Shown: positions 3,669 to 61,930 of the stretch, piece after piece
How positions within the stretch are numbered: the first letter of the stretch is position 1
How the letters are laid out: every line of letters starts with the position of its first letter
From: Hamadaea flava
GTDB taxonomy: Bacteria; Actinomycetota; Actinomycetes; Mycobacteriales; Micromonosporaceae
Direction of reading: 5' to 3'
DNA length: 64,000 nt
Assembly: GCF_024172085.1 (NCBI RefSeq)
Contig: NZ_JAMZDZ010000001.1
Span: forward strand, 4,030,001-4,094,000
Position numbers and translations under genes: made by a program
The notes under the pieces: generated by a model
What the model was told of the DNA's origin: nothing
Seen by the model: the letters and a program-made list of their open reading frames with translations, nothing else
Databases searched by the model: none

Positions 3669-3837
3669 CGCCGCTTTCCGCGCGCCCCCCCCCCCCCCCC
3701 CCCCCCGCCGCTTTCCGCGCGCCCCTTGCCGCTTTCCGCGCGCCCCCCGCCGCTTTCCGCGCGCCCCCCGCCGCTTTCCGCGCGCCCCCCGCCGCTTTCC
3801 GCGCGCCCCCCGCCGCTTTCCGCGCGATCATGAACTA
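3669..3837. repeat. 21-bp tandem array with 22-base poly-C tract
   Basis: CTTTCC recurs at 3674, 3711, 3732, 3753, 3774, 3795 and 3816. The period is 21 bp, except that the first unit is lengthened by a run of 22 C at 3685-3706. The unit contains CCGCTTTCCGCGCG, which is also the outer edge of the dispersed element starting at 3817, so the array seems to have grown from that edge. No gene is supported here. Confidence 0.9.
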
Positions 3838-3909
3838 ACGGTCGTGATCGACCGGCGTGTCGTGCCCCCAGCGCCCTGATCAACTCCCGAGCGGCATGAT
3901 CAATCGGCG
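3817..3909 (+). repeat. Dispersed intergenic element, copy 1
   Basis: Begins TTTCCGCGCGATCATGAAC, continues with GTCGTGATCGACCGGCGTGTCG, and ends in two CTGATCAACTC-like blocks. This is one of eight copies in the window. It forms an inverted pair with the copy at 5783-5872, the two bracketing the CDF gene. (The second block is quoted here as GTCGTGATCG then ACCGGCGTGTCG.). Confidence 0.85.
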
Positions 3910-3939
3910 TGCTCCGTTCCCGCGCCGGACGAACGTCGC

Positions 3940-3945
3940 TACGCT
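3940..3945 (+). promoter_or_regulatory. Candidate -10 box of a leaderless CDF transcript
   Basis: TACGCT (TAnnnT) ends 7 nt before the ATG at 3953. A weak -35, TTCCCG, lies at 3917-3922 with a 17-bp spacer. No Shine-Dalgarno is present before this ATG. Confidence 0.45.
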
Positions 3946-3952
3946 CACGCCC

Positions 3953-5362
3953 ATGAGCGGGTCGCACGAGCACGACCACAACTCCCCGTTGCGGGAGCAT
4001 GACCGCGCGCACGATGGCGACCACGACCACCCGGGGGAGCACGACCACAACTCCCCGTTGCGGGAGCATGACCACGCGCACGACGGCGACCATGAGCACG
4101 GCGAACACGGCCATGGGCAGGGGCACGGGCACGACCACGGGCACGACGACCACGAGTACGGCGAGCACGGGCACGGGCACGACGAGCACGGGCACGGGCA
4201 CGACGAGCACGAACACGGGCACGACGAGCACGAACACGGGCACGACGAGCACGGGCACGGGCACGACGAGCACGAACACGGGCACGACGAGCACGGGCAC
4301 GGGCACGGGCACGGCGAGCACGGACACGGGCACGGCGAACACGAACACGGGGGCGGCGGGCTGTGGCACCGGCTCACCCACTTCTTGACGCCGCACTCGC
4401 ACGACACGGCCGCCAAGGTCGACTCGGCGATGGAGACCTCTCGCGAGGGCCTTCGCGCTTCGTGGATTTCGTTGGGCGTACTGGGGGTGACGGCGATTCT
4501 TCAGGCGATCGTGGTCGTCCTGTCCGGCTCGGTCGCGCTCCTCGGCGACACGCTGCACAACGTGGCCGACGCGCTGACCGCCGTACCGCTCGGGATCGCG
4601 TTCGTCCTGGGCCGGCGACGTCCTACTCGCCGCTACACCTACGGCTACGGGCGCGCCGAAGACCTCGCCGGAATCGTGATCGTCGTGTTCATCGCGGCGT
4701 CCGCGGTCGTCGCCGGTTATGAAGCCGTACGCCGACTGCTCAACCCGGCCGAGGTCAGCCATCTTTGGGTGGTCGCCGTCGCGGCGCTCATCGGATTCGC
4801 CGGCAACGAACTCGTGGCCCGATACCGGATAAGTGTCGGACGCCGGATCGGCTCGGCTGCTCTCGTCGCCGACGGGCTTCATGCGCGTACCGATGGCTTC
4901 ACGTCTTTGGCGGTGTTGCTCGGAGCCGGCGGCGTGGCGATCGGCTGGTCATGGGCGGACCCGGTCGTGGGTTTGCTGATCACGGTAGCGATTCTGTTCG
5001 TGCTGAAGGACGCGGCGCGCGAGGTGTACCGGCGGCTGATGGACGCCGTGGACCCCGACCTCGTCGACAAGGTCTCCGCCGTGCTCGTCGAGACGCCCGG
5101 GGTGACCGGCGTCGGCGACGTCCACCTGCGGTGGATCGGCCACCAGCTGCGCGCCGAATGCGAGATCAGCGTCGACCCCTCGCTCACGATCGCGCGGGCG
5201 CACGCCATCGCGGTGGACGCCGAGCATCGGCTGATCCATGCCGTACCGCGATTGACCAGGGCTTTTGTGCACGCCGACCCGGATGGCGACGAGCACCAGC
5301 ACGACGAACTCGCCCATCACCGGGAAAACGGCCACGGACGCCGCACCGCGAAGACACACTGA
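3953..5362 (+). CDS. Histidine-rich CDF-family metal cation exporter
   Basis: Cation diffusion facilitator (CzcD/ZitB type), which exports Zn2+ or similar metals from the cytosol in exchange for protons. The first 145 or so residues are a repetitive His/Asp/Glu/Gly metal-binding region built from HGHDEHEHGHDEHG-like units. The membrane part carries the two metal-site motifs LHNVAD (His202, Asp206) and ADGLHARTD (Asp307, His310, Asp314), followed by a cytoplasmic domain and a short His-rich tail. I start at ATG 3953 (469 residues); an upstream in-frame ATG at 3857 would add residues encoded by the repeat element and is less likely. The His-rich segment is encoded by 24-bp-type tandem repeats and may vary in length between strains. 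Confidence 0.93.
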   Translation: MSGSHEHDHNSPLREHDRAHDGDHDHPGEHDHNSPLREHDHAHDGDHEHGEHGHGQGHGHDHGHDDHEYGEHGHGHDEHGHGHDEHEHGHDEHEHGHDEHGHGHDEHEHGHDEHGHGHGHGEHGHGHGEHEHGGGGLWHRLTHFLTPHSHDTAAKVDSAMETSREGLRASWISLGVLGVTAILQAIVVVLSGSVALLGDTLHNVADALTAVPLGIAFVLGRRRPTRRYTYGYGRAEDLAGIVIVVFIAASAVVAGYEAVRRLLNPAEVSHLWVVAVAALIGFAGNELVARYRISVGRRIGSAALVADGLHARTDGFTSLAVLLGAGGVAIGWSWADPVVGLLITVAILFVLKDAAREVYRRLMDAVDPDLVDKVSAVLVETPGVTGVGDVHLRWIGHQLRAECEISVDPSLTIARAHAIAVDAEHRLIHAVPRLTRAFVHADPDGDEHQHDELAHHRENGHGRRTAKTH

Positions 5363-5475
5363 TTCGCCCCTGCCACCACTTCACCCGGCGAACCCCGGCG
5401 GACGCGGCGGCCCGGCCCCGGCGGCCGGACCCCGCCGCTTGGACCCGCCGCTTGGACCCGGCGGCCCGGCCCGCG

Positions 5476-5760
5476 GACTCGGTCGACCCGGCCCGCAGAC
5501 TCGGTCGACCCGGCCCGCAGACTCGGTCGACCCGGCCCGCAGACTCGGTCGACCCCGCCCGCAGACTCGGTCGACCCGGCGCGCGAACCCGCCGTCCGGA
5601 CCCCCGCCGCTTGGACCCGCCGCCCGGCCTGCGGACCCGGTGGACCCGGCGCGGACCCGATGGACCGGCGCGGACCCCGTGGACCCGGCGCGGACCCCGT
5701 GGACCCGGCGCGGACCCCGTGGACCCGGTGGACCCGGCGCGGACCCCGTGGACCCGGCGT
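5476..5760. repeat. Two GC-rich tandem arrays (22 bp and 20 bp units)
   Basis: GACTCGGTCGAC recurs at 5476, 5498, 5520, 5542 and 5564, a 22-bp period. From about 5640 to 5760 a 20-bp unit GTGGACCCGGCGCGGACCCC is repeated about five times with one shortened copy. Open frames through this stretch are Pro/Gly/Arg repeats without gene features. The sequence before it (5363-5475) is similar low-complexity GC-rich DNA. Confidence 0.85.
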
Positions 5761-5782
5761 GCGCCGGCGGGCCCAGCGCGCG

Positions 5783-5872
5783 GAGTTGATCATGCACTTG
5801 GGGAGTTGATCAGGGGCGCCGGTACACGACACGCCGGTTGATCACGACCATAAGTTCATGATCGCGCGGAAA
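5783..5872 (-). repeat. Dispersed intergenic element, copy 2
   Basis: Inverted relative to copy 1: it opens with two GAGTTGATCA-type blocks, has CGACACGCCGGTTGATCACG, and ends with the conserved edge TTCATGATCGCGCGGAAA. GC-rich, repetitive, gene-free DNA (GGGCGAGCGGGCCGAGC units) fills 5873-5942 up to the polX stop. Confidence 0.85.
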
Positions 5873-5942
5873 GCCCCGCAGGGGCGAGCGGGCCGAGCGG
5901 GCCGAGCGCGGAGCGCGACGGCCCGGCGAGGGGCGAGCGAGG

Positions 5943-7664
5943 TCAGGAGCGTTTGGCCGCGACAAAGGCCCGAAGCCGCGAGAGCGGCCAAGCGTTGATG
6001 ACGTCGTCCACGGTGAGCCAGCCCCGTTGGGCGGTCCCGATGCCGAATCGGATGTTGCGCATGTGCCGGGTGGAGTGCGCGTCGGTGTCGATGGCGAACT
6101 TCACGCCACGCCGTTTGGCGCGCAGGATGAGGTCGTCGGAGAGGTCCATCCGGTCGGGGAAGCTGTTGACTTCCAACGCCGTGCCCGTGGCGGCGGCCGC
6201 TTCGAAGACGGCGTCCCAGTCGGCGTCGATGGGCGGGCGTTTGCCGATCATCCGCGCCCGGGGGTGCCCGATGATGTTCACGTACGCGTTTTCGCAGGCC
6301 CGGATCAGTCGCTGGGTCTGCTCCGGGCTGGACAGGGTGAAGTGCGAGTGCACGGACGCCACGGTGATGTCGAACCCCGCGAGGAAGTCGCCGTCCCAGT
6401 CCACTTGGCCGAGGGGGTCGATGTTCAGTTCGGTGCCGTGCAGCAGTGTCATCGAGCCGGCGTCCAGCGATCGCAGTTCAGCGCGCTGGGCGAGCATCTT
6501 CTCGGTGGTCATCCGCTGCATGACGAGGTTCGGGGCATGGTCGGTGACGGCGTAGTACTCCAGGCCGCGGTCGATCGCGGCGGCCACCATCTTGTCCAGC
6601 GGTGACACGCCGTCGGTCAGGTCGGTGTGCGTATGCAGGTCGCCGCGCAGGTCAGCCTCGGTGATCAGGGCCGGCAGCTCCCGGCGGAGCGCCGCTTCGA
6701 TCTCGCCCCGGTCTTCGCGCAGGGTGGGCGGGATCCATGGCAGGCCGAGCCGCTCGTAGACCTCCTCCTCGGTCTGGGAGACGAGGAGGTCGCCGGTCTC
6801 GGCGTCGAAGAGGCCGTATTCGGAGAGCTTGAGTTTGGCGTGGACGGCGATTTCGCGTACGCGGATGTTGTGCGCCTTGGAGCCGGTGAAGTATTGCAGC
6901 GCCGCACCCCAGGCGGCGGGCGGGACGACACGCAGGTCGACTTGGAGCCCTCGCCGGGTCCGGATGGACGTCTTGGTCGGGCCGCTGCCGATGACTTCGC
7001 TGGCGGCAGGCAGCGCCTTGAACGCCTCCATCAACGGTGCCGAGTCCTCGGCGGCGGCCAGGATGTCGACGTCGCCGATGCTGTCCCGGAACCGCCGCAG
7101 CGAGCCGGCGATGCTGATCGAGACACAGCCGGGCACCTGGGACAGCGCGCTGACGATCTCCTCGGCGACCGCGGTGGCGGTGTCGATGAGGACCCGGCCT
7201 TCGTTGCGGCGCAACAGTTCGATGCCGTGCAGGATGTTGTCGGCGGTCTTCGCTCCGAAGCCGGGCAGCCCGTCGAGCTTGCCCGCCTCGATCGCCGCCG
7301 CCAGTTCCTCGACCGTGGCGACGTCCAGTTCCTTCGTCAGCGTCACGGCCTTCTTCGGCCCGAGTCCTGGGATCTCCATCAGCTGCAGCGCGCCCGGCGG
7401 AATCCGCGTACGCAGTTCCTCGAGCGCACCGATGGCCCCGGTCTCCAGGTATTCCACGACCTTCGCCGTCATGGACTTGCCGACGTTGGGAATCTGCCCG
7501 ATCCCGGCTGCATCCAATGTGGAGATGTCCTCGTGGTACGCGGCGACGGCCCGAGCGGCCTTGTCATAAGCCCGGATCTTGAAGGAGTCGGCGCCACCGG
7601 TGACGGCCAGCAGATCGGCCAGCTCCTCCAGCAGCGCGGCGACGGTGTCGTTGGCCCGCGGCAT
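5943..7664 (-). CDS. polX: PolX-type DNA polymerase/3'-5' exonuclease with PHP domain
   Basis: Family X DNA polymerase of bacterial PolX type, 573 residues, acting in gap-filling DNA repair. The first 160 or so residues hold helix-hairpin-helix elements (IPGLGPKKAVTLTKEL, LPGFGAKTADNIL). The nucleotidyltransferase core shows GSLRRFRDSIGDVDIL with the metal-binding DVD pair. A C-terminal PHP phosphoesterase domain begins near residue 340 (GDLHTHTDLTDG), followed by TDHA, HGTELNI, HSHF and GHPRAR metal-site motifs and a final DTDAH. The full-length two-domain layout suggests an active exonuclease. The ATG follows a TAGACT hexamer by 6 nt. Confidence 0.95.
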   Translation of the reverse strand: MPRANDTVAALLEELADLLAVTGGADSFKIRAYDKAARAVAAYHEDISTLDAAGIGQIPNVGKSMTAKVVEYLETGAIGALEELRTRIPPGALQLMEIPGLGPKKAVTLTKELDVATVEELAAAIEAGKLDGLPGFGAKTADNILHGIELLRRNEGRVLIDTATAVAEEIVSALSQVPGCVSISIAGSLRRFRDSIGDVDILAAAEDSAPLMEAFKALPAASEVIGSGPTKTSIRTRRGLQVDLRVVPPAAWGAALQYFTGSKAHNIRVREIAVHAKLKLSEYGLFDAETGDLLVSQTEEEVYERLGLPWIPPTLREDRGEIEAALRRELPALITEADLRGDLHTHTDLTDGVSPLDKMVAAAIDRGLEYYAVTDHAPNLVMQRMTTEKMLAQRAELRSLDAGSMTLLHGTELNIDPLGQVDWDGDFLAGFDITVASVHSHFTLSSPEQTQRLIRACENAYVNIIGHPRARMIGKRPPIDADWDAVFEAAAATGTALEVNSFPDRMDLSDDLILRAKRRGVKFAIDTDAHSTRHMRNIRFGIGTAQRGWLTVDDVINAWPLSRLRAFVAAKRS

Positions 7665-7670
7665 GTGACC

Positions 7671-7676
7671 AGTCTA
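7671..7676 (-). promoter_or_regulatory. Candidate -10 box of a leaderless polX transcript
   Basis: On the minus strand TAGACT lies 6 nt before the polX ATG at 7664; no ribosome binding site is present. Confidence 0.4.
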
Positions 7677-7806
7677 GGCGGGGTCACCGACGAAAAGACC
7701 GCCGAGAACCGCTTGACGAACTTCCGTCCGGCCGGAGATATTGGCGGATATAAACATCCGATCAATGGCCCACCGCGCCGGGCAGCCCGACGAAAGGACC
7801 CCCGCC

Positions 7807-8946
7807 GTGGAACGCCGCACCCTCCTGAAAGCGACCGCCTTCGCCCCGCTGGCATCGACCAGCCGGCTCCAGCCGACCGGCCAGGGGACGGGGGAGAGCC
7901 AAGAAAGCGCAGTTCAGGCGCAGGGCCTGCCGTCGAGGCAGGCGATCCTCGACCAGGTACGCCTCGTCCAGACCTATTGGATCGGCACTCATCGAAACCC
8001 GGGTGACAACAAGTGGGCGAGAGCCACCTACTTCAGTGGGCACCAGGCTGCGTACCGGGCGACCGGTGAGAATCTGCGCTACGCCCAGAAGTGGTCTCAG
8101 CAGAACGCGTACGCCCTCAACGGCGGGACCACCACGCGCAATGCCGACAACCAGTGCGCCGGCCAGGCGTACTACGACCTGTTCGACATCGACCACGACG
8201 CGAGCCACTTGACGGCGATCAACGAGTCGATCCGGCTGATGGTGTTCGGGTCGAATCAGTCGAACAGCGACTGGTGGTGGTGCGACGCGCTGCACATGGC
8301 GATGCCAGTGTTCGCCCGCGTACGCACACACACCGGCGACCCGGCATACGGAGACAAGCTGTGGACGTTGTTCAGCTACACCAAGAACCTGCTGTGGGAC
8401 GCCGGTGACCACCTCTGGTACCGCGACGCGAACTACGTCTATCCGACGGGCGGCCAGTGCCTGTCCCCCAACGGGAAGAAGGTCTTCTGGTCGCGCGGCA
8501 ACGGTTGGGTGCTCGCCGGGCTGGCCAAGACGCACGCGCTCCTGCCGGTGTCGGATCCGCGCCGGGCCGACTACGCCGCCCTGTTCCAGCAGCACGCCGC
8601 CGGGCTGCTCCCGGTTCAAAGATCGGATGGCTTCTGGAACGTCAATCTCGCCGACCCGCTGCACCGGCCGGGGCCGGAGACTTCCGGAACCGCCTTCTTC
8701 ACCTTCGGGCTGGCGTACGGGATCCGGGCCGGGTTGCTCGATCCGACGATTTATCTGCCCGCCGCCACGAACGCGTGGAACGGGATGACCGCGGTCGCCG
8801 TACGCTCCGACGGCCTGCTCGGCTACGTCCAGGGCACCGGCGCGAACCCGGACTCGAGTCAACCGGTCACCTCGACCAGCACAGCCGACTTCGGCGTCGG
8901 CGCCTTCCTGCTGGCCGGAACGGAGTTGGCGAAGCTAACGAGTTAG
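7807..8946 (+). CDS. GH88/GH105-like unsaturated glucuronyl/rhamnogalacturonyl hydrolase, exported
   Basis: Glycosyl hydrolase of the (alpha/alpha)6-barrel GH88/GH105 type, which removes unsaturated uronic acids from oligosaccharides released by polysaccharide lyases. Visible family features include DWWWCDALHMAMPVFAR (residues near 160) with the catalytic-type Asp and FWSRGNGWVLAGLAK in the second half. The start is GTG 7807, 8 nt behind AAAGGA, giving 379 residues beginning VERRTLLKATAFAPLAS, a short twin-arginine-like signal (RRTLLK), so export by Tat is likely. No lyase or transporter gene is adjacent. Its 3' end overlaps the convergent MmcQ gene by 12 bp. Confidence 0.85.
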   Translation: MERRTLLKATAFAPLASTSRLQPTGQGTGESQESAVQAQGLPSRQAILDQVRLVQTYWIGTHRNPGDNKWARATYFSGHQAAYRATGENLRYAQKWSQQNAYALNGGTTTRNADNQCAGQAYYDLFDIDHDASHLTAINESIRLMVFGSNQSNSDWWWCDALHMAMPVFARVRTHTGDPAYGDKLWTLFSYTKNLLWDAGDHLWYRDANYVYPTGGQCLSPNGKKVFWSRGNGWVLAGLAKTHALLPVSDPRRADYAALFQQHAAGLLPVQRSDGFWNVNLADPLHRPGPETSGTAFFTFGLAYGIRAGLLDPTIYLPAATNAWNGMTAVAVRSDGLLGYVQGTGANPDSSQPVTSTSTADFGVGAFLLAGTELAKLTS

Positions 8947-9282
8947 CGGGACCAGGGCCGAGATCTTCTTCGGCACGCACATCCGCCACGCCTCGATGAT
9001 CAGCTCGGTCATCTCGTCCTCGTCGAGCGCGGCCAGCCGGGCGCGTACCCAGTTGAACCGCATGTCCGAGGGAATCGGCAGGAGAAACTTGTCCGGTTCT
9101 GCGGCCACCAGGGCTTCCCGCTCCTCCTTCGGGAAGCCGAAGCCGAGCAGGGTCTCGTCCGGCGTGATCGCGGCGTACACGATCTGGCCGACCCGGAACT
9201 TCACCTGGTCGCGGATCAGGTGCTCGCTGGTCCGCGGCAGCTCGCGGGCGACCGCGCGGATCTGGTCGACGGTGACCGGCAC
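8935..9282 (-). CDS. MmcQ/YjbR-family protein
   Basis: Small protein of 115 residues with the MmcQ/YjbR (CyaY-like double-wing) fold signature: KFRVGQIVYAAITPDETLLGFGFPKEEREALVAAEP (given here only as landmarks KFRVGQIVYA and GFGFPKEERE) and FNWVRARLAALDEDEMTELIIEAWR at the C-terminal end (landmarks WVRARLAALD and ELIIEAW). The family is often called DNA-binding, but its cellular role is not established. A GTG start lies 3 bp behind the stop of the NlpC/P60 gene, so it is the last gene of a minus-strand unit. Confidence 0.8.
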   Translation of the reverse strand: MPVTVDQIRAVARELPRTSEHLIRDQVKFRVGQIVYAAITPDETLLGFGFPKEEREALVAAEPDKFLLPIPSDMRFNWVRARLAALDEDEMTELIIEAWRMCVPKKISALVPLTR

Positions 9283-9285
9283 GGC

Positions 9286-10188
9286 TCAGCCCAGCAGCCG
9301 CCGCGCGGCGAACAGGTGACCGTGCCGGACCTCCGAGATCGGTCCGTCCAATGTGTCCCAGTCGGTCTGCGAGCAGTGCAGCATCGACGGCCAGCCGTCC
9401 ACGACGCCGGCACAGATACCCACGTGGTAGACGAAACCGGTGTCCGGCTTGCGGAAGAACATCAGGTCGCCGGCGGCGAGGTCGGCCAGCTCGACCGGCT
9501 CGCCGACCGCGTACTGGTCGGTCGCGTCGCGCGGGATCAGCTGCCCGAACCGCCGGTACAGCCCATAGGTCAACCCGGAACAGTCCAGACCGTGGGCGGT
9601 CACCCCGCCCGCGAGATACATCAGCCCGAGGAACTGCCGCCCTGTGCTCAACAACTGCTCCGCGCTGGGCAGGTCGCTTTCCGACGGGTACGCGCAAAGG
9701 TGCGCCCGGGGCAGGTAACCCGCACCGCCGCCGGGCAGATTCACCCGGGCCCAGTCCTCGTCGCCGCCCTGGACGGGCAGGATCGTCGCGAACGAGACGC
9801 CGTCGATCAGCGGCTCGCCGCCGGGCTCCGCGCGTACGCACGTCGTGGGAACGACGACGACGGCCTGTTCGCCGGTCTCCTCTGCTGGTGTGGCGAGCTG
9901 ACTCAGCGGCAGCCAGCCCGGGTAGCCGCGCGGATCCTTCCGGCACGACTGCGACGGGACGACGACCTGCGCCCACCCCTCCTTGACGTCGTCCACGAGG
10001 ACGGTGTCGCCGAGCAGGGCCTGGGTGTCGAGGCGGCCCCAGAGTTCGCGGCGCTCGTCGGGACCTTGCGCCGCCACCCAGGCGGCGACGTCGGCCGGCG
10101 CGGCCAGCGCGGGCGCGTCGAGTTCGCGGACGGCGTCTGGTGCCGTCCACAGTCCGGCGGCCGCGACGGCGACCTGCATCGTCTCCAC
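9286..10188 (-). CDS. NlpC/P60-family cysteine peptidase with SH3-like domains
   Basis: Probable gamma-D-glutamyl-diamino-acid endopeptidase acting on cell-wall peptides. The C-terminal third has the NlpC/P60 catalytic set: Cys in GLDCSGLTYGLY, His in FVYHVGICAG and a polar third residue in SMLHCSQ. The middle contains two SH3b-like segments (GWLPLSQL and AGYLPRAHL). No clear signal peptide is seen, so localisation is uncertain; relatives in actinomycetes process peptide stems or cytosolic muropeptides. I choose GTG 10188 because GGGGAGGA lies 5 nt upstream; an ATG at 10179 is the alternative. It follows the hydrolase gene by 14 bp. Confidence 0.85.
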   Translation of the reverse strand: METMQVAVAAAGLWTAPDAVRELDAPALAAPADVAAWVAAQGPDERRELWGRLDTQALLGDTVLVDDVKEGWAQVVVPSQSCRKDPRGYPGWLPLSQLATPAEETGEQAVVVVPTTCVRAEPGGEPLIDGVSFATILPVQGGDEDWARVNLPGGGAGYLPRAHLCAYPSESDLPSAEQLLSTGRQFLGLMYLAGGVTAHGLDCSGLTYGLYRRFGQLIPRDATDQYAVGEPVELADLAAGDLMFFRKPDTGFVYHVGICAGVVDGWPSMLHCSQTDWDTLDGPISEVRHGHLFAARRLLG

Positions 10189-10202
10189 TGTCGTCCTCCC
10201 CG

Positions 10203-10825: not shown

Positions 10826-10884
10826 GCAGATCACGGTTATGCCTGCCATTCTGAGTCAGGTTCAGCTGCATATCCGTGATCTGC
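10826..10884. terminator. Long-stem palindrome (family C, copy 1)
   Basis: Arms 10826-10842 and 10868-10884 (17 bp, one mismatch) read GCAGATCACGGTTATGC and its complement. It lies just behind the pspC stop and before the hydrolase start, so it probably ends the pspC transcript. There is no U-tract. Two related palindromes lie at 45075-45135 and 51381-51443. Confidence 0.7.
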
Positions 10885-16404: not shown

Positions 16405-16467
16405 CGCTGGATCAGGGTTCCCGGTCGAATCTTGGGCCAAGATTCGACCCAGAACCCTGATCCAGCG
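16405..16467. terminator. Long-stem palindrome (family B, copy 1)
   Basis: Arms of 31 bp with two mismatches begin CGCTGGATCAGGGTTC and meet around a one-base loop. It lies between the SDR stop and the MaoC start. A partial extra arm (CTGATCCAGCGGGGAAAG) follows to about 16493. It probably terminates or attenuates transcription between SDR and MaoC. A copy with related arms lies at 40938-41001. Confidence 0.75.
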
Positions 16468-19985: not shown

Positions 19986-20043
19986 CCTTGATCAGCGGAA
20001 GCTTCGTGGGGCTATGACACCGCGAAACTTCCGCTGATCAAGG
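19986..20043. terminator. Long-stem palindrome (family D) between convergent genes
   Basis: Arms 19986-20006 and 20023-20043 (21 bp, one mismatch) begin CCTTGATCAGCGGAAG. It is placed exactly between the stops of the lipoprotein gene and the Mce operon, so it probably acts as a bidirectional terminator. Confidence 0.75.
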
Positions 20044-32899: not shown

Positions 32900-33095
32900 T
32901 TTCCGCGCGATCATGAACTAACGGTCGTGATCGACCGGTGTGTCGTGTGCGCCAGATCCTGATCAACTCCGTAGAGCCCTGATCGACTTCTGGGCCGGAC
33001 GCCCGAGATTGATCACGGTCTTGGGGGATTGATCAGGGCGCTACGGACACGACACGCCGGTCGATCACGCACATAGGTTCATGATCGCGCGGAAA
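32900..33095. repeat. Inverted pair of dispersed elements, copies 3 and 4
   Basis: The left half starts TTTCCGCGCGATCATGAAC and the right half ends TTCATGATCGCGCGGAAA, forming an imperfect palindrome of 196 bp with GTGTCGTG facing ACACGACAC and several TGATCA blocks in the middle. It fills most of the 324-bp gap between the convergent rsdA and crcB genes, so it could act as a bidirectional terminator. The gap holds no other gene. Confidence 0.85.
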
Positions 33096-33168
33096 GCGAC
33101 CGCGGAAAGCGACCGCGGAAAGCGACCGCGGAAAGCGACCGCGGAAAGCGACCGCGGAAAGCGACGGC
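33091..33168. repeat. 13-bp tandem array
   Basis: GGAAAGCGACCGC is repeated six times (33091, 33104, 33117, 33130, 33143, 33156). The unit begins with the GCGGAAA edge of the adjoining element. Confidence 0.88.
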
Positions 33169-37056: not shown

Positions 37057-37273
37057 TTTCCGCGCGATCATGAACTAACAGTCGTGATCAACCGGCGTGT
37101 CGAGTCCGCCCGACCCTGATCAACTCCCTAGCTCCCTGATCAACCTCAGACCTCGCCGCCGTTCCCGGCCAGCGAGTCGATCATGAACCTGTCGGAACGA
37201 TCAGGGCCGAACTAGATCGGCGACCTGCGAAAACGTAGTCGATCACGCCCGTTAGTTCATGATCGCGCGGAAA
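37057..37273. repeat. Inverted pair of dispersed elements, copies 5 and 6
   Basis: Left edge TTTCCGCGCGATCATGAAC at 37057; right edge TTCATGATCGCGCGGAAA ending at 37273. The middle carries CCTGATCAACTCCC-type blocks and a degenerate internal GATCATGAAC. The pair fills most of the 408-bp gap between the lipoprotein start and the ABC permease stop, with C-rich DNA at 36986-37056 and a tandem array behind it. No gene is seen. Confidence 0.83.
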
Positions 37274-40922: not shown

Positions 40923-40937
40923 CGACTCGCTTCTCTT

Positions 40938-41001
40938 GCGCTGGATCAGGGTTCCAGGTCGAACACGCCCCAAGATTCGACCTGGAACCCTGATCCAGCG
41001 C
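40938..41001. terminator. Long-stem palindrome (family B, copy 2)
   Basis: Perfect 26-bp arms 40938-40963 and 40976-41001, beginning GCGCTGGATCAGGGTTCC, with a 12-nt loop. It lies 15 bp behind the holin-like gene. No U-tract follows. Confidence 0.8.
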
Positions 41002-41079
41002 ATAACGCGTAAACAGCGGGAGCGCGGAGCAGCGGGAGCGCGGAGCAGCGGGCCGGGGTCCAGGGGGTAACGCGAGGGT

Positions 41080-45074: not shown

Positions 45075-45135
45075 TGCAGATCACGGTTGTGCATGCCTCC
45101 AGCGGCGTTTGAAGCATGCGTAACCGTGATCCGCA
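45075..45135. terminator. Long-stem palindrome (family C, copy 2)
   Basis: Arms 45075-45096 and 45114-45135 (22 bp, three mismatches), beginning TGCAGATCACGGTT. It lies directly behind the hydrolase stop and before the next promoter. Confidence 0.72.
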
Positions 45136-46873: not shown

Positions 46874-46961
46874 CTTGATCAGGGTCGCGCGGAGTCGATC
46901 AGGGTCGAGCGGACACGCCACGCCGGTCGATCACGACCATAGGTTCATGATCGCGCGGAAA
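46874..46961 (-). repeat. Dispersed intergenic element, copy 7
   Basis: Contains TTGATCAGGGTCG blocks, CACGCCGGTCGATCACG and the conserved edge TTCATGATCGCGCGGAAA ending at 46961. It stands alone between the stop of the hydrolase gene and the stop of the small Cys protein gene. Confidence 0.82.
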
Positions 46962-51380: not shown

Positions 51381-51443
51381 GTGCAGATCAGGTTTATGCA
51401 GGCTGCCGAGGGCCTCGGAAGCCTCCATAAACCTGATCTGCAC
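51381..51443. terminator. Long-stem palindrome (family C, copy 3) between convergent genes
   Basis: Arms 51381-51403 and 51421-51443 (23 bp, one mismatch), beginning GTGCAGATCAGGTTTATG; the loop itself contains a small CCGAGG/CCTCGG hairpin. It is placed between the stops of the methyltransferase and the LysM gene. Confidence 0.75.
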
Positions 51444-54725: not shown

Positions 54726-54904
54726 GGCGTCGTCGGGACCTTGTCGAGCCAGCCCTGCGCGATCCCGCGAACACCCCAGTAGACGAGGACCGCGACCGCG
54801 CCGATCAGGGCCACCAGGATGACGTAGGGGACGGGTCCTTCGCCCCGGTCCCGCTTCGCCGGATGCATCAGCTCGCCGAGGCGGGCGTACAGCTTGTATC
54901 GCAT
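54722..54904 (-). CDS. Flp-type major pilin candidate
   Basis: Protein of 60 residues, the size of Flp prepilins: a charged leader (MRYKLYARLGELMHPAKRDR), then RGEGPVPYVILVALIGAVAV and a short tail. Gly-Glu-Gly-Pro-Val-Pro-Tyr aligns with the G|xxxxEY site of Flp, but the +5 Glu is Pro here while +6 Tyr is kept. It sits between tadC and tadE as expected of the pilin gene. Either an atypical major pilin or a pseudopilin; the true Flp could lie elsewhere. Confidence 0.75.
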   Translation of the reverse strand: MRYKLYARLGELMHPAKRDRGEGPVPYVILVALIGAVAVLVYWGVRGIAQGWLDKVPTTP

Positions 54905-54923
54905 CGCTTTTCCTCTCCGTGCC

Positions 54924-55808: not shown

Positions 55809-56704
55809 GCCGCACCTCCCTCGATCGGCGGCCCGCTCAGCAGCCGGGGACGGCGCTCGGGCAACGACAGCGACCGGATCCAGAGCATCAGCGCGATGTA
55901 GATTCCGGCGAGCACGGCCAGCAGAAGCTGACCGAGGACCGTCCCGTACGCCAGCGCCGCGCCCGCGTTGAACGCGCCGAACAGCGCCACGATCCCGGTC
56001 GCGACGGTGAGGAACTTGACGGTGAACCGGGCCCGCGCCCGTTCGCTGTCGACCGTGGAGCGAGTGGTGATCTCCTCCTGGATCGCGTGCGCGATGTCGA
56101 CCAGCGCGTTGTGGAGGCCGTCACCGGCGTCGGCGAGCTGCAGGATCAGCGGGGCCACCACTTCGTCGCAGCTGTAATCGTCGAGTTCGTCGGCGAACGC
56201 CCGCAACGCCGCCACCGGATCGACCCCGGCCTGCAGGCGTACGGCGAGATTGCGTACCTCGGGTCCGATGAGGGGCACCGTCGTCGTGCGGGCGGACGCC
56301 ACGATCGCGGCCTGCAAACCGAGTCCGTTGTGGACGTAGTCGCCGACCCGGCGGGTCCACGCCTCCAGCGCGCCGAGGCGGGCGATCGCCCGTTTCTCCG
56401 CACCGGCCGCCGAGAGCAGCCAGGGCAGCCCCGGTACGGCGAGCAGCGCGATCGCCGCGCCGACCGGCCAGCCGGTGAGGAACCAGGTCGCCGCGCCGGC
56501 CCCGACCCCGCCGAGCACGAGCGCGGCCCGGAGCCGGGCGTGCGCCGGGTCGTCGATCCGGTCGCCGGTGACCATCCGGCGTAGCCACAACGCCGTCGGC
56601 GACGGCGGCCCGGCCGGCTTCCGCGTCCCCACACCGAAGGCCACTGCCAGCGCCATACCGCCGCCGAGCAGGAGGAGGGCGAAGATCGCCAGCAGCTCGA
56701 TCAT
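55805..56704 (-). CDS. tadB: TadB, type II/IV secretion F-domain membrane protein
   Basis: Second platform protein, 299 residues, with a T2SS-F domain (LEAWTRRVGDYVHNGLGLQA at its start, ARFTVKFLTVATGIVALFGA before the last helices) and four membrane segments. It overlaps the ATPase gene by 4 bp upstream and tadC downstream, the normal tadABC order. Confidence 0.92.
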   Translation of the reverse strand: MIELLAIFALLLLGGGMALAVAFGVGTRKPAGPPSPTALWLRRMVTGDRIDDPAHARLRAALVLGGVGAGAATWFLTGWPVGAAIALLAVPGLPWLLSAAGAEKRAIARLGALEAWTRRVGDYVHNGLGLQAAIVASARTTTVPLIGPEVRNLAVRLQAGVDPVAALRAFADELDDYSCDEVVAPLILQLADAGDGLHNALVDIAHAIQEEITTRSTVDSERARARFTVKFLTVATGIVALFGAFNAGAALAYGTVLGQLLLAVLAGIYIALMLWIRSLSLPERRPRLLSGPPIEGGAA

Positions 56705-58158
56705 CGGCGTACCCGCCGAGTGTGCAGCTCACGCGACCACGCGCCCCGGTTGTGCGGCCCGGCCTCGATGTACGCCGTCAGCTCCCGCAGGTCGTACCCG
56801 ACGTCGAGCAGGTCCTCCCGGATGCGTTCGGGCAGATGCCGGGGCACCGCCCGGCCGTCCGGGCCGGGTCCGAAGACGGTCGTGGTGACCACCTGACCGT
56901 CCCGCATGCCGCCGACCTCGACGACGTGGGAGACGAACCGGTGCTCGGCCCCGCCGATCGCCCGCTCGTCGACCACTGCGGTGTAGACGATCAGGTCGAT
57001 GCCCTGGGCCGCCATCCGCAGCGCCTGCTCGGCTCCGATGTCGGTGCCGTAGGAGCAGGCGAGCTGGACGATCGAGTCCATCACCTCGCGGGCCTGCCGG
57101 GCGTGGATGGTGCACATCGCTCCCCGGCTGACCGTCATCGCCCGCAGCATCGGAACGATCTCCCGGCCTCGGGTCTCCCCGACGATCACCCGGCGTACGC
57201 CGAGCCGTTGGGTGATCGGCATCATGTCGTGCAGGTTCTTCTCGCCGCGGCGACGGCCGCCGGTGTCGTACTCCCCGTGGCCCTGCAACGCCTCCAGGCT
57301 GATCACCCAGTTGGACCCGGCCGGCTCGTGCAGGCCCAGCTCGCGCGACTCCTCCAGGGTGATGTACGGCTCGCCCGCCGGAATCGTGCGGGCCAGCGCC
57401 CGCAGCAGCGTCGTCTTCCCCGACCCGGCCAGCCCGGCGATCATGATGTTCGCCCCGGACTCCAGCGCCTTGGTCAGGAACCGGTAGAGCAGCAGGTCGA
57501 TCATGCCCCAGTGGTCCCGGAGCTGCTCCAGCGAGGCGTCGAAGAGGCTGTGCTTGCGGAGGTAGACGATCGGGCGGGGCGAGACCTTGTAGAGCACCGT
57601 CATCCGGGAGCCGTCCGGCAGCTGCATGTCCAGCTCCGGATTGGACTCCGAGAGCTGCCGCTCGGTCGCCGCGACCCGCATCGCCAGCACCTGCAGCATG
57701 CTGATCAGCTCGTCGTCGGTGTCCGCGACCGGTTCGCCGCGGCTGCGCGTACCGTCCGCGTGGTGCAGCAGGACCTGGTCGCAGCCCAGGATGTGCACGT
57801 TGGTGATGGTCGGGTCGTCGAGCAGCCGTTGCAGCCGACCGGCTCCGAACATCCCGGCGACCAGTGCCTCCAGCAGCGCCCGCTCCTCCTGCGGACTCAC
57901 CGGGCGGCCGGCGTGTGCCATCCCGGCGGCGTAGTCCCGGATCACCTCCCGGCCCAGGCGCTCGGCCATCTCCCGCCGGTACGCCGCGGTCACATTGGCG
58001 GAATCGGTCAGCAGCTGACTCAACTTGTCGGTGACCCGGGAATGCAGTTGGCGTACCACCGTGTAGTCGAGCTCGACCCCCTTCGCGGCGAACGGCGCGG
58101 CCGACACCGGCACCACCGCGGAGGTCGCGTGCCCGTTCAACCGCGCGGGCTGCGTCAT
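56701..58158 (-). CDS. tadA: TadA/CpaF secretion ATPase
   Basis: Hexameric traffic ATPase that drives Flp pilus assembly, 485 residues. Walker A GLAGSGKTT lies near residue 245, the Asp box ITLEESRELGLHE follows, Walker B is in RVIVGETRGREIVPML and the His box in AMCTIHARQAREVMDSI. An N-terminal N0/N1-like part (AGMFGAGRLQRLLDDPTITNV, given as landmark RLLDDPTITNVHI) is intact. The start overlaps the cpaE-like stop by 4 bp. Confidence 0.95.
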   Translation of the reverse strand: MTQPARLNGHATSAVVPVSAAPFAAKGVELDYTVVRQLHSRVTDKLSQLLTDSANVTAAYRREMAERLGREVIRDYAAGMAHAGRPVSPQEERALLEALVAGMFGAGRLQRLLDDPTITNVHILGCDQVLLHHADGTRSRGEPVADTDDELISMLQVLAMRVAATERQLSESNPELDMQLPDGSRMTVLYKVSPRPIVYLRKHSLFDASLEQLRDHWGMIDLLLYRFLTKALESGANIMIAGLAGSGKTTLLRALARTIPAGEPYITLEESRELGLHEPAGSNWVISLEALQGHGEYDTGGRRRGEKNLHDMMPITQRLGVRRVIVGETRGREIVPMLRAMTVSRGAMCTIHARQAREVMDSIVQLACSYGTDIGAEQALRMAAQGIDLIVYTAVVDERAIGGAEHRFVSHVVEVGGMRDGQVVTTTVFGPGPDGRAVPRHLPERIREDLLDVGYDLRELTAYIEAGPHNRGAWSRELHTRRVRR

Positions 58159-58988
58159 GCGATCACCCCGCTCGGGAGGGCCGGGAGCTGGAGGCGCGCG
58201 GCGCGGTCGGAGACGATCAGCGCCTGCGTGGCCTGGACCGCGCGCGCCGCCGTACGCATCAGCGCGCCCCGGCGGCGACCACGGCCTTTGCCGCCGAGCG
58301 CCGCCGCGGTCCGGGTGTCCCAGGCGACCTCGGCCGCGACGGGGGCCATGAGGTGCCGGCTGAGTTCCCGCGCGGAGATGCCGCCGCCGATGGGCAGGAG
58401 GGCCAGGGTGCCGTCAGCCACTGGCAGTTCCCGGCGCAGCTGCGCGAGCGCGGGCACCGCCGGGGAGATCGTCGCGAGCGACGTCGGCCGTACGCCCAGC
58501 AGAACCGCGTCGGCCTGCCGCAGCAACGGCCAGGGCGGGAAGCCGCTGGCCAATCGTCCGCAGTCGGCGATGACGGTCCACCCGGCCCGGCTGAGCGCGG
58601 CGAGGAACTCGCCGATCGCGGCCCACGCCGGGGCGAGCGAGGCACCCTGAGCGGGGTCGGTCAGGCCAGGCAGCGCGAGCCGTTCGCCTTTGTGATTGTC
58701 GAGATCGATGAGCAGGCCCGGCAGTTCCTGAACGGCCGACCCGCGCAGCGCCGCGCTCGCGAGCGGCAGGACGCCCCGGTCGGTCGGCAGGTCGTAGCGG
58801 CTGAGGTAACCGGCGAGGAGCGAACCACCGGCGGGGTCGCATTCGGCCAGCAGCACCGGACCACGCGGCCCCTCCGCGTTCGTGCCGCCGGTCGCGGCCG
58901 CGGCCGAGGGCACGGACAGCGTGGCGGCGAGGGCGAAGGTGGACACCCCCGGCGAGCCCTTGGCCGAGACGATCGCGAGGAAGCTCAT
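58155..58988 (-). CDS. CpaE/TadZ-like ParA-fold protein
   Basis: MinD/ParA-type protein of 277 residues at the TadZ position, which directs the pilus machine to its cell site. The deviant Walker A reads SAKGSPGVSTFALA, Walker A' and B are in LLAECDPAGGSLLAG and VIADCGRLASG. A receiver domain, present in true CpaE, is missing, as in other actinobacterial Tad loci. ATP binding is likely. It follows the SAF gene by 9 bp. Confidence 0.85.
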   Translation of the reverse strand: MSFLAIVSAKGSPGVSTFALAATLSVPSAAAATGGTNAEGPRGPVLLAECDPAGGSLLAGYLSRYDLPTDRGVLPLASAALRGSAVQELPGLLIDLDNHKGERLALPGLTDPAQGASLAPAWAAIGEFLAALSRAGWTVIADCGRLASGFPPWPLLRQADAVLLGVRPTSLATISPAVPALAQLRRELPVADGTLALLPIGGGISARELSRHLMAPVAAEVAWDTRTAAALGGKGRGRRRGALMRTAARAVQATQALIVSDRAARLQLPALPSGVIA

Positions 58989-58997
58989 CGGAACCCC

Positions 58998-59660
58998 CTA
59001 GGCCCCGGTCAGGGCGAGCGCGATCCGGTCGTCGGCGGCCATGGCCGCGACGGTCGGCGCGTCCGCGGTGGCGACCTCGACGTTGACCAGCGTCTCCCCT
59101 TCGGTGTGGCCGGGTTTGACGTCGGTCACCCGGGCGGCGATGGTCCGTGGCGGCACCAGTTCAGGAGTGTTCTGCGCCGACAGCGCCGTCTTGTCGGGGA
59201 TCACGACGAGCACGGCCGACGCACCGATGCGTACGCGGGTCGCCGGCATCCGGTCCTCCTTGAGCAGCAGCCCGACCAGCTGCTTGCCCGGTCCGGGGAT
59301 CGCGTCGTCGGTGAGCTGGTCCAGGGTGAGCAGCGTCCCGGGGACCAGGGCCATCACCGCGTGCTTGCCGACCACGTCCCTGGCCTGCCCGGCCGGGATC
59401 GGACGCAACCCGAGCGCCGAGTTGACTCGGACGATGACCAGGTCGGGGGCGGTGATCTCGGCGCCCGCTCCGACCGGGCGGGCCACCGCCAGGTAGTCAT
59501 GGGTGGCGCCGATGCGCTGCACGACGTAGCCGGCGGTCAGCGCGCCCGCGATGATCAGGAGCAGGGCGAGCGCGCCCTGGAGGAGGGACCGGCGGCGGGG
59601 GGCCAGCCGGGGCACGGCCAGCGGCGGCGCGGGCGGCTTACCGGTCGCAACGGTACTCAT
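58998..59660 (-). CDS. CpaB/RcpC-like SAF-domain protein
   Basis: Pilus assembly protein of 220 residues: an N-terminal membrane helix (LLQGALALLLIIAGALTAGYV), then a SAF domain (VARPVGAGAEITAPDLVIVRV, landmark GAGAEITAPDL; later GKHAVMALVPGTLLTLDQL) typical of CpaB/RcpC, which in Gram-negatives modulates pilus exit. It overlaps the upstream gene by 4 bp. Confidence 0.87.
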   Translation of the reverse strand: MSTVATGKPPAPPLAVPRLAPRRRSLLQGALALLLIIAGALTAGYVVQRIGATHDYLAVARPVGAGAEITAPDLVIVRVNSALGLRPIPAGQARDVVGKHAVMALVPGTLLTLDQLTDDAIPGPGKQLVGLLLKEDRMPATRVRIGASAVLVVIPDKTALSAQNTPELVPPRTIAARVTDVKPGHTEGETLVNVEVATADAPTVAAMAADDRIALALTGA

Positions 59661-60607
59661 CGGGTGACCACCTGCATTTCGTCGATCCGGATGTACGTCG
59701 TCGAGGACCGGGTCACCTCCAGCTCACCGGTCTCGCCGGTGGTGGCGACCCAGGTCACGTGCCAGGTCGTGGTTCCTTCCACGCGGTACTGGCCGGGATG
59801 GCCGGGGATGCGCTTGTCGCGGGACGGTTCGGTGTACCGGTAGCCGCAGGTCGGCGAGGAGCCCCCGCCGGACGCCGCGGTGTAGGGGGTGCCGTGGTCG
59901 GGGCAGACCTTTGTGGACCCGTCACCCATGTCCCAGCTGATCCGCCGCGATTCAGCCCTCGCGGTCACCGACAGACCCGGCACCGAGGCGGTCGCCGACT
60001 GCGTACCCCAGGTCTCCGGGGTGATCCGGGTCCACATCCAGACGGGCAGCCCGACCAGCCCGCTGCCGCCCGGCCGGGGGGCCAGCCCGATGGCCGGGCC
60101 GGAGATCGGCAACGCGTTGATCGCGCGCAGGGCTATCTCCAGCACCGACGGCAGCCCGCCATAGCCGGCCGGCGGATCGCTGAGGAACTCGACGCCCGAA
60201 TTGACATAGCCGGCGGCCCCGCCGTCGTAGCACCACTTCTGGTAGAGCGACCCGTCGCTCGGGTCGTGCCCGCCCCACGCGGGATCGCTAGGCGGCAGGG
60301 TCAGGCGGTCGTAGTAACAGCCGTCCGTCGGGTTGTACCAGCCCAAGCTGTCGCGGTAGCACGGGATCTCGCCCTGCTGCGGATCGAGGCAGACGTCCCG
60401 GCCGCCACCGCCTCCACCACCTCCGCCGCCGCCTCCCCCACCGCCGCCACCTCCGGTGACGACGATGTAGCACGGCCCGTTGTCCGGCGGGCAGTAGATG
60501 TAATCGGCCTGCGCGGGACTCGCTCCCGCCACCACGGTCACGGCCGCGAGCACGACCAAGATCAAGGGGTACGCCCAAAGGCGTGGCCGGTTCGCGTACG
60601 TCAGCAT
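59657..60607 (-). CDS. Secreted protein with an 18-Gly run, Tad-locus member
   Basis: Exported protein of 316 residues: signal peptide ending near SPAQADY, two Cys pairs (YCPPDNGPCY, later DVCLDPQ and IPCYRDS), a run of 18 Gly at about residues 52-69, and a C-terminal domain with WDMGDGSTKVCPDHGTPY that resembles PKD-like folds found in actinobacterial Tad loci. The Gly codons are mixed (GGA, GGT, GGC, GGG), so the run is kept as protein and is not a simple slip. No family name is certain. It could be a surface adhesin or pilus-tip component. ATG 60607 overlaps the lipoprotein stop by 7 bp. Confidence 0.8.
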   Translation of the reverse strand: MLTYANRPRLWAYPLILVVLAAVTVVAGASPAQADYIYCPPDNGPCYIVVTGGGGGGGGGGGGGGGGGGRDVCLDPQQGEIPCYRDSLGWYNPTDGCYYDRLTLPPSDPAWGGHDPSDGSLYQKWCYDGGAAGYVNSGVEFLSDPPAGYGGLPSVLEIALRAINALPISGPAIGLAPRPGGSGLVGLPVWMWTRITPETWGTQSATASVPGLSVTARAESRRISWDMGDGSTKVCPDHGTPYTAASGGGSSPTCGYRYTEPSRDKRIPGHPGQYRVEGTTTWHVTWVATTGETGELEVTRSSTTYIRIDEMQVVTR

Positions 60608-61182
60608 GACGCCGCCCGGTCCGCCCGCGACTCCACCCAGCGCCACTTGGCGTCGGGGTAGAGCCCGGCCCGCATCGTCACCGGGTATCGCTGGTTCTGC
60701 CCGGACTTCACCACGGACTTTCCGGTCTTGCGGCTGACGGTGTCGGTTCCCGAGTCGTCCACGCAGACCTCCACGACGATCGAGGTGGGGCTGACGCTCA
60801 CCACACGGCGCAACGTCACCCGCGGCGAGCCCTTCCGGAGGAAGCCCTGCTCCCGCATGATGTCCAGATCGCGTTCCAACGCCGACATGTAGGTGCCGGC
60901 GGCGTACGGGTAGAGCGGCCGCTTCGTCTTGTCGGTGTTCCACTCGTAGGTCCCCGACTGCGCCGCCTTCAGATAGATTGCGTTGAGCTGCTGGTACGCC
61001 GACCATGCCTGGTCGACGGCCTGCTGATCGGTGGGCGAGAGGCTTGCCTGCGTCACCGGTCTGCTCGGCGGATCGGCGGGCGGTGGGACCTCCACGGTCC
61101 GGGCTGCGCAGCCGGATGCCAACAACAGCAACAGAATCGACCCTGTCGCCAGTGTCTGTCCTTTACGGAACCCGGATGGCAT
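60601..61182 (-). CDS. Lipoprotein leading the Tad operon
   Basis: Exported lipoprotein of 193 residues with lipobox LLASGC (Cys about residue 25). The mature domain (LNAIYLKAAQSGTYEWN, YMSALERDLDIMREQG, VEVCVDDSGTDTV) shows an NTF2-like pattern seen in actinobacterial surface lipoproteins. GGGGGGA precedes ATG 61182. First gene of the minus-strand Tad unit, divergent from the prepilin peptidase. It may be an assembly or pilotin-like factor; function unknown. Confidence 0.8.
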   Translation of the reverse strand: MPSGFRKGQTLATGSILLLLLASGCAARTVEVPPPADPPSRPVTQASLSPTDQQAVDQAWSAYQQLNAIYLKAAQSGTYEWNTDKTKRPLYPYAAGTYMSALERDLDIMREQGFLRKGSPRVTLRRVVSVSPTSIVVEVCVDDSGTDTVSRKTGKSVVKSGQNQRYPVTMRAGLYPDAKWRWVESRADRAASC

Positions 61183-61287
61183 GCATCCCCCCTTGTCATC
61201 GGCCGTTCCCTACCCCCCGTGACCAACCGATTGCGCTCTCGCGGGCGATCGTACGATGATCGACGCCTATGTAACAAGGGGTGATCA

Positions 61288-61770
61288 ATGTCCATACGTA
61301 CAGTGCTGGATGACAGATCTATCTATTCCCACGTCGCCGCCCTTTTGGCAGCCCTCTGGTGGATCACCCATGCGGTGCTGCTGTCGATCACCGACGTACG
61401 CACCCACTGCCTGCCGCTCCGCCTCATCGCCACGATGTCGGCCGGCACCCTGCTCCTGCTCGCCGGAGCCGCCCCCGTACGCCTTCTCCCCGCCGTCCTG
61501 TGCGGATCACTCCTGGCGGGCGTGCTCTTCCTGCTGGCCCTGCCCCGGCACGGCGTCGGCCTCGGCGACGCCGCCCTCGCCTTCCCCATCGGCGTCGTCC
61601 TCGGCTGGACCGGCTGGACCACCGTGCCCGTCTGGGCCCTGGCCGCCGGCCTGCTGATGTCGCTGACCGCACTCACCCTGCTGGCCCTGCGCCGGGTCGA
61701 ATGGCGCTCGACACTGCCGCTCGGCCCCTTCCTCCTCGCCGCCGTCCTCCCCGCCCTCCTCCTCCCCTAG
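61288..61770 (+). CDS. A24 prepilin peptidase (TadV/CpaA type)
   Basis: Small integral-membrane aspartic peptidase of 160 residues that cleaves Flp prepilins. The two catalytic Asp are in SITDVRTHCLP (about residue 36) and GVGLGDAALAFP (about residue 93, GxGD). Several membrane segments. It lacks the N-terminal methylation domain of PilD, as TadV does. AGGGG precedes ATG 61288. Divergent from the Tad operon; the 105-bp gap holds both promoters. Confidence 0.9.
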   Translation: MSIRTVLDDRSIYSHVAALLAALWWITHAVLLSITDVRTHCLPLRLIATMSAGTLLLLAGAAPVRLLPAVLCGSLLAGVLFLLALPRHGVGLGDAALAFPIGVVLGWTGWTTVPVWALAAGLLMSLTALTLLALRRVEWRSTLPLGPFLLAAVLPALLLP

Positions 61771-61842
61771 CCCCCGCGCTCGCCCCCCTCGCCCCGCTCA
61801 CCCCGCTCGCCCCCCTCGCCCCGCTCGCCCCGCTCGCCGCAC
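61771..61842. repeat. 9-bp-type C-rich tandem array
   Basis: GCTCGCCCC-like units are repeated about seven times directly before the edge of element copy 8. No gene. Confidence 0.75.
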
Positions 61843-61930
61843 TTTCCGCGCGATCATGAACTATCGGTCGTGATCAACCGGCGTGTCGTGTCCCCGGGAT
61901 CCTGATCAACTCCCCGACTCCCTGATCAAC
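61843..61930 (+). repeat. Dispersed intergenic element, copy 8
   Basis: Starts TTTCCGCGCGATCATGAAC, then GGTCGTGATCAACCGGCGTG and two CTGATCAACTC blocks, ending at 61930. The rest of the gene-free stretch to 62566 is non-coding: unstructured DNA to about 62070, then the minisatellite below. Confidence 0.85.

Follow-up and report, generated by a model that had tools for sequence, protein, structure and literature searches.

In Escherichia coli, bacterial interspersed mosaic elements (BIMEs) are extragenic, lie frequently between convergent genes and contain repetitive extragenic palindromic (REP) units of several types, and REP sequences are bound by gyrase, IHF and DNA polymerase I, as stated in one study (PMC1525189). 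REPs tagged with GTAG or CGTC and accompanied by REP-associated tyrosine transposases (RAYTs) are high-copy extragenic palindromes that occur in opposite orientation between unidirectional and convergent open reading frames (ORFs), according to the accessible text of a second study, in which there is no mention of Micromonospora, Salinispora, actinobacteria or GATC (PMC3733652). GATC sites can also act in clusters; SeqA, according to a third study, needs GATC sites two to three whole turns apart (PMC5145175). Here we describe a high-copy GATC element from Hamadaea flava (Micromonosporaceae), eight copies of which lie in a window of 64,000 bp (the whole stretch of DNA that was analyzed; contig NZ_JAMZDZ010000001.1 of assembly GCF_024172085.1, positions 4,030,001 to 4,094,000). 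We tentatively read it, in what is close to an even call, as the Hamadaea high-copy subfamily (three genomes) of an extragenic GATC element with relatives scattered in the Micromonosporaceae, read as duplex DNA by a putative TGATC-binding protein and having a BIME-like role at gene ends.

The element resembles each of these systems in part. Like BIMEs, it is extragenic and often between convergent genes, with units of several types and inverted pairs; unlike theirs, its unit is 88 bp long, is no simple stem-loop and holds four fixed TGATC blocks at whole-turn spacing, there is a C-rich tail, the genus has no RAYT, no binding protein is known, and most of its copies are single. It shares with the tagged REPs its high copy number, extragenic position and oppositely oriented units, but it has no Y1 transposase, the ends of the window copies carry neither a GTAG nor a CGTC tag (8/8, by reading), and GATC lies inside the arms. 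A RAYT-associated REP is a short stem-loop of 20-40 bp with the tag at its foot, whereas the element is 88 bp long and folds weakly. Like those of the SeqA-bound clusters, its GATC sites share one face of the helix at separations of two or three full turns; in contrast to those, there is no SeqA, a D12-class methylase is present in 1/4 genomes, and the conserved bases extend beyond GATC. Among the matches listed in literature on Micromonosporaceae, Hamadaea genomes, actinobacterial REP/RAYT and convergent-gene terminators, we found no description of these elements.

Conserved blocks and their spacing

An initial annotation of the window had proposed eight dispersed intergenic copies of about 90 bp. 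All eight are real: the 19-bp edge TTTCCGCGCGATCATGAAC is exact in 8/8, at 3817+, 5872-, 32900+, 33095-, 37057+, 37273-, 46961- and 61843+, and when the window was shuffled 100 times edge matches (<=3 mismatches) averaged 0.04 and never numbered eight. The proposed length holds for seven copies, which measure 88 bp, but not for the copy ending at 37273, which is 98 bp with a different middle; likewise, the inner blocks that had been described are exact in some copies (TCGTGATCRACCGG in 6/8, CTGATCAACTC in 5/8) and inexact in the rest. The copies do look intergenic; a called start at 3896 falls in the first of them, but the ATG at 3953 yields a cation-efflux protein. The 88-bp unit, which we call type A, has GATC at offsets 9/29/61/81 and the consensus order TTTCCGCGCGATCATGAAC, 7-bp linker, CGTGATCRACCGGYGTGTCGYGTCC, linker, CCCTGATCRAC, linker, TGATCRAC. 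Type B (98 bp) has an unrelated middle (CGTTTTCGCAGGTCGCC...) that adds exactly 10 bp, and its GATC sites are at 9/29/71/91. In an alignment of 149 edge-bearing sequences, a set that includes 10 chance matches from outside Hamadaea, GATC stands at 29 in 127, at 61 in 119 and at 81 in 114, and the columns past position 87 carry little information.

At orthologous sites the blocks of the element are under purifying selection and the linkers drift. Many H. flava copies have same-place partners in two Hamadaea metagenome-assembled genomes (MAGs), with flanks ~88% identical, and the 166 distinct elements yield 42 independent orthologous pairs (12 of 57 pairs having been dropped for identity below 60/88). 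For the block test we kept the 32 of these 42 with a conserved type-A middle and the same register; TGATC identity was 156/160 in block 2, 160/160 in block 3 and 151/160 in block 4, and blocks 2 and 4 together scored 307/320 against 483/736 for the linkers (p about 5e-31). Conservation of the edge is not counted as evidence, because the edge was the search key; the ortholog search reached only those loci of the relatives that bear it, and the share of conserved sites is not derivable. Linker identity is 0.66 between orthologs and 0.48 between random copies; ortholog linkers are thus closer than random, and the copies therefore descend in place and are not simply overwritten by other copies.

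Register is preserved along with sequence. Both partners of 33 same-type pairs have blocks 2 and 4 in register at 58/66 positions, or at 91/99 when block 3, whose position defined the type, is included. The same pairs show 29 gap openings per 2277 bp inside the element; an equal length of flank has 130 downstream and 189 upstream. In six of the 42 pairs the partners in the two species differ in type, A in one and B in the other, and 3/42 are unclear. Repeats like these are commonly regarded as parasitic DNA; here many copies can be traced one by one between species, and the site-wise preservation of blocks and spacing makes the function of extragenic palindromes directly testable.

BIME units stand in inverted arrangement, and so do those of the Hamadaea element: neighbors less than 600 bp apart comprise 33 '+-', 2 '++' and 0 '-+' cases (overlapping loci counted repeatedly), though most copies are nevertheless single. 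The two palindromes of about 200 bp reported initially measure 196 bp (32900-33095) and 217 bp (37057-37273), with edges outermost and tails together. The first consists of a type-A left arm at 32900-32987 (+) and a type-A right arm at 33008-33095 (-), and is also present in the related genome G080; the genomes G039 and G061 carry other GATC palindromes there. In the second, a type-A left arm at 37057-37144 (+) faces a 98-bp type-B arm at 37176-37273 (-), which has GATC at 9/29/71/91 plus a further GATC at 55 and is kept as type B in G080.

Of 18 distinct tail-to-tail pairs, some of them orthologs, 14 have a measurable gap between the inner GATC sites, with values of 16, 25, 25, 26 (six), 27, 36, 37, 47 and 172 bp. 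All 14 fall within 1 bp of 26+10.5k, which for 172 is of little meaning, and the orthologous pairs in loci L206 and L058 differ by 21 bp (47 vs 26). Within one copy, the block-to-block distances are 20, 32 and 20 bp. The simplest reading of these distances, of the type-B step of 10 and of pair steps of 10-11 and 21 is that contacts lie on one face of the duplex; the evidence for phase is good but not decisive, because there are few independent length classes.

Gene ends and the palindromes that occupy them

The element is extragenic and lies mainly at gene ends, avoiding divergent promoter regions, a location similar to that of BIMEs. Among 139 distinct copies, 50 are between convergent genes, 34 are tandem sense, 21 tandem antisense and 14 divergent, with 20 at contig or locus ends; background gaps of >=150 bp in the same loci number 45 convergent, 125 tandem and 69 divergent. 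For gene calling we relied on a codon model of our own instead of an annotation pipeline; 21/139 copies overlap a called gene by more than 5 bp, part of which are probably over-extended called starts. The 60 nt upstream of the edge contain 51-54% C and 7-9% A in every gene context; because gene direction makes no difference to this C-richness, the tract belongs to the element, and a C-rich Rho-loading tract set by the genes was rejected (C 0.51-0.54 in all gene contexts). Exact periodic runs of >=14 occur in 53/162 upstream flanks, compared with 16/165 downstream flanks and 2/56 random intergenic stretches, and the edge motif TTTCCGCG recurs in 37/166 upstream flanks (reversed, in 0).

Gene ends also carry simple GATC hairpins, a related class distinct from the element. 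Two in the window belong to the GCAGATCACGG family (10826-10884 and 45075-45135, GATC-GATC 49 bp in both) and two to the GGATCAGGG family (16405-16467, 49 bp; 40937-41002, 48 bp), and two lie between convergent genes (19986-20043, 46 bp; 51381-51443, 49 bp). These six palindromes represent at least two or three sequence families, and the GATC-GATC distance is exactly 49 bp in 4/6 despite the differing sequence. A window scan for intergenic inverted repeats found GATC in 7/7, and a wider sample of three genomes found it in 7/13, 4/9 and 6/9, versus 2.1, 1.1 and 1.8 expected. The fourth Hamadaea genome, G061, has GATC palindromes of its own (loci L190, L239 and L240), two with their GATC sites 62 bp apart, just as blocks 1 and 3 are in type B.

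In a related species, too, these gene-end slots tend to be filled with a GATC palindrome. In a 174-kb syntenic comparison, either the element or a simple GATC palindrome occupies 12/18 convergent, 11/47 tandem and 1/24 divergent gaps of H. flava (convergent vs divergent, p 2e-5); for the element alone the figures are 5/18, 5/47 and 1/24. For the convergent and tandem gaps testable in G039 (divergent gaps being left out), that genome is occupied in 13/17 cases where the H. flava gap is filled and in 1/21 where it is not (p 5e-6), counts that depend on the hairpin thresholds. The occupant differs in kind, judged from its first letters, in 7/13 shared slots: opposite the element at 37.1 kb, for instance, G039 has another hairpin, and hairpin families are exchanged at 40.9 kb (the other family in G039) and at 45.1 kb (the other family in both G039 and G080). 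The 45.1-kb slot is not among the 13, having been scored empty with a hairpin that falls just below the thresholds. If true, the exchange of unrelated GATC palindromes in gene-end slots that are themselves conserved would speak for function in a new way.

Distribution and hairpin relatives in the Micromonosporaceae

The motif is not confined to the window. The H. flava genome, one contig of 8,864,410 bp, has 114 edges at <=2 mismatches (reversed-pattern control, 0), and a random 240-kb sample of it contained 3 elements, all intergenic, from which we estimate ~110 elements per genome, in agreement with the 114 and below the at least 150 profile matches. At <=1 mismatch the edge is present in 4/300 family genomes, with 100 places in H. 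flava, 95 and 85 in two congeners and one in genome G292, and was not found in G061. A profile search of the Hamadaea genomes gave at least 150, at least 150 and 135 copies in three of them and one borderline match in G061. An edge scan of the named collection returned at least 120 stretches, and among the 80 matches listed 73 are on Hamadaea MAG contigs and 7 are single matches in unrelated records. As far as the exact edge, not found in viral contigs, and one 101-bp copy, with no match in plasmids or phages, can show, a phage or plasmid repeat is rejected.

The apparent restriction to one genus at <=1 mismatch, the G292 place apart, gave way once the profile found weaker relatives. It reaches 28/111 genomes, namely 4 of Hamadaea and 24 weaker matches in 12 other genera (of 43 other genera; 107 non-Hamadaea genomes). 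Moreover, the first 66 bp of the element align with a hairpin found in 35/131 family genomes and 12/44 genera, Hamadaea included. This Micromonosporaceae GATC hairpin (GTTGATCATGAA..TT...CGGCGTGTCG...AACTTCATGATCAAC) is homologous to the element over blocks 1-3, has a GATC-GATC distance of 50-52 bp and carries a C-rich left flank; what sets the Hamadaea element apart is the loss of most of the arm pairing, together with its blocks 2 and 4 and its TTTCCGCG edge. Locus L291 of the H. flava genome is an intermediate, with the right arm of the hairpin but already block 2.

We compared 48 of these relatives, from 52 picked among the listed matches (one duplicate and three without a GATC pair were left out). 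Their GATC-GATC distance is 50 in 2, 51 in 35 and 52 in 11, the outer arms are conserved (GATCATGAA..TT / AA.TTCATGATC) and the center, CGGYGTGTCG, is mostly so. The inner stem has 367 Watson-Crick cells, 41 A-C, 16 G-U and 104 other, with several pair types per position.

Among the 100 listed of the 114 places in H. flava, elements are denser near dnaA, with 39/32/17/12 in quartiles of the origin-terminus distance. A strand-biased replication signal such as the FtsK-orienting polar sequences (KOPS) was rejected, 52 of the same places being leading and 48 lagging.

Competing explanations and features near the copies

From the block and spacing constraint, the gene-end location and the conservation of slots, we infer a protein and its effect. 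A putative sequence-specific protein would read the element as duplex DNA, contacting the TGATCR cores on one helix face, 2, 3 and 2 turns apart in each copy and in phase across a tail-to-tail pair. By analogy with the E. coli BIME, the resulting nucleoprotein patch would act as a gene-end insulator or as a supercoil- or chromosome-organizing site, perhaps interchangeable with the simpler GATC hairpins, and the copies would have spread in the past, many now being vertically inherited. A nucleoid-protein site was among the readings offered initially and is the best supported of them, by the spacing data. It is also tempting to speculate on a GATC-reading chromosome-organizing system across the Micromonosporaceae, in which a putative protein unrelated to SeqA or IHF sits on phased TGATC cores at gene ends and unrelated GATC palindromes are swapped within fixed slots, although we hold this wider version to be doubtful.

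Several observations weigh against a protein-bound duplex. No TGATC-binding protein was found; SeqA (PF03925) is absent from 4/4 Hamadaea genomes, and a D12-class adenine methylase (PF02086) occurs in 1/4, in H. flava only and not in the other two element-rich genomes. The phasing draws on four gap classes and type B, with several of the measured pairs being orthologs, and GATC elsewhere in intergenic DNA has no 10.5-bp periodicity. The 49-bp GATC distance, seen in 11/24 listed unrelated hairpins, is not a whole number of turns, and the variety of inner-stem pairs in the hairpin relatives is easier to reconcile with a nucleic acid that folds than with a site in duplex DNA. Finally, of 6 testable element slots G039 holds the element in 3, another GATC palindrome in 2 and nothing in 1; because only 3/6 keep the element, turnover is not rare.

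The element might instead be a structured RNA or 3'-end signal, transcribed at gene ends, with blocks that pair into hairpins ending transcription or protecting mRNA. The gene-end location would suit such a role, as would slots that alternate with real hairpins and family relatives that are themselves strong hairpins, their inner stems showing several pair types. RNAalifold also predicts two small stems for the element, in which most changes switch between G-C and G-U or between A-U and G-U; in the first, pairing is free to vary on one side only, the edge being fixed by the search. Nevertheless, single copies (45 of 130 folded) fold hardly better than shuffles, with mean z of -1.3 and -1.0 on the two strands, and the two predicted stems occur in 44 and 34 of 100 copies. 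The long-hairpin terminator suggested initially is accordingly weak for single copies (mean z -1.3, while one of the window's simple GATC hairpins scores -8.2): folded singly, they do not form the stable hairpin of an intrinsic terminator, although tail-to-tail pairs could form long imperfect ones. The orientation bias in tandem contexts is weak (34 sense vs 21 antisense), the C-rich upstream flank is independent of gene direction, contrary to a gene-set Rho-loading tract, and whole-turn spacing has no obvious use in RNA. Since A-C mismatches exceed G-U pairs (41 > 16) in the relatives' inner stems on the analyzed strand, the RNA would have to come from the other one. A known RNA family was rejected, as no Rfam model matched the window at gathering scores or any of six further loci at E up to 0.5. 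In locus L205 an ordinary hairpin follows the element. Taken with the points in its favor, these observations leave the RNA explanation a possible but rather unlikely one.

Less likely still is a non-autonomous mobile element of the MITE (miniature inverted-repeat transposable element) or REP type, which would have no cellular function and would have been spread by a transposase since lost or not recognized. The dispersal of the copies, the polarity of the unit with its repetitive C-rich tail, the scatter of relatives across the family and the frequent difference between occupants of shared slots all fit this picture, and two sites do lack the element in a relative: a pair in L195 is absent from L038 and a single copy in L205 from L054, the upstream gene at the latter site apparently ending at the TGA inside the element. 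Neither site shows a clear target duplication, however, and single copies, as read from the eight in the window, have no terminal inverted repeat beyond the GATC cores. The MITE-like part of the initial annotation is weak, given that many copies are shared at orthologous sites with blocks under purifying selection, even though element-absent sites exist; what is conserved there is the blocks, not whole copies. Its REP-like part stands as to extragenic position, mostly at gene ends, and some inverted pairs, but not as to a RAYT: the Y1 transposase domain (PF01797) is absent from 4/4 Hamadaea genomes (G080 being only 87% complete), other transposase families not having been searched, while control rings were positive in 5/14. 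A RAYT-borne REP was accordingly rejected, and because there is no RAYT the classical REP mechanism is not at hand. The lack of a phage or plasmid match (one 101-bp copy) and of the exact edge in viral contigs likewise speaks against mobility.

A GATC methylation switch, with a Dam-like methylase and a SeqA-like reader on phased GATC pairs, is highly improbable: spacings of 20 and 32 bp per copy, and of 30 bp between copies at the most frequent pair gap, come near the two-to-three-turn need reported for SeqA (PMC5145175), and H. flava does have a D12-class adenine methylase, but with PF03925 in 0/4 genomes and PF02086 in 1/4, missing from the two other element-rich ones, a SeqA/Dam system was rejected. 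The D12-class adenine methyltransferase gene itself lies at L253:829-1875 (~C1:3.979 Mb), beside a 379-aa protein without a Pfam match.

The remaining window copies, all type A, stand singly beside a variety of features. As initially described, two of them flank a cation diffusion facilitator (CDF) gene, the cation-efflux gene at 3953-5362 (PF01545). The copy at 3817-3904 (+), with GATC at 9/29/61/81 and an ortholog in locus L041 of a relative, is joined at its edge to a C-rich tandem array with a 21-bp unit containing TTTCCGCGCG (3660-3816, +). Its counterpart at 5785-5872 (-) lies between convergent genes, and 20-22-bp tandem repeats (GGACCCGGCGC..., 5440-5780) occupy much of the gap between it and the cation-efflux gene. 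A 13-bp tandem array (GCGGAAAGCGACC; 33096-33160, -) similarly extends the edge of the right arm of the 196-bp pair. Farther along are a copy between convergent genes at 46874-46961 (-), with an ortholog in G039, and one at 61843-61930 (+), 72 bp past a stop codon and with an ortholog in L124, beside which several near-identical units of a 47-bp tandem array (CGGCACGACACGACACGGTG...) span 62013-62552. In the N-terminal part of the cation-efflux gene, at 3968-4403, a 21-bp tandem repeat apparently codes for a His/Asp/Glu/Gly-rich stretch, possibly metal-binding. A PolX-like DNA polymerase with a Pol beta thumb and a PHP domain, at 5943-7664, directly adjoins an element.

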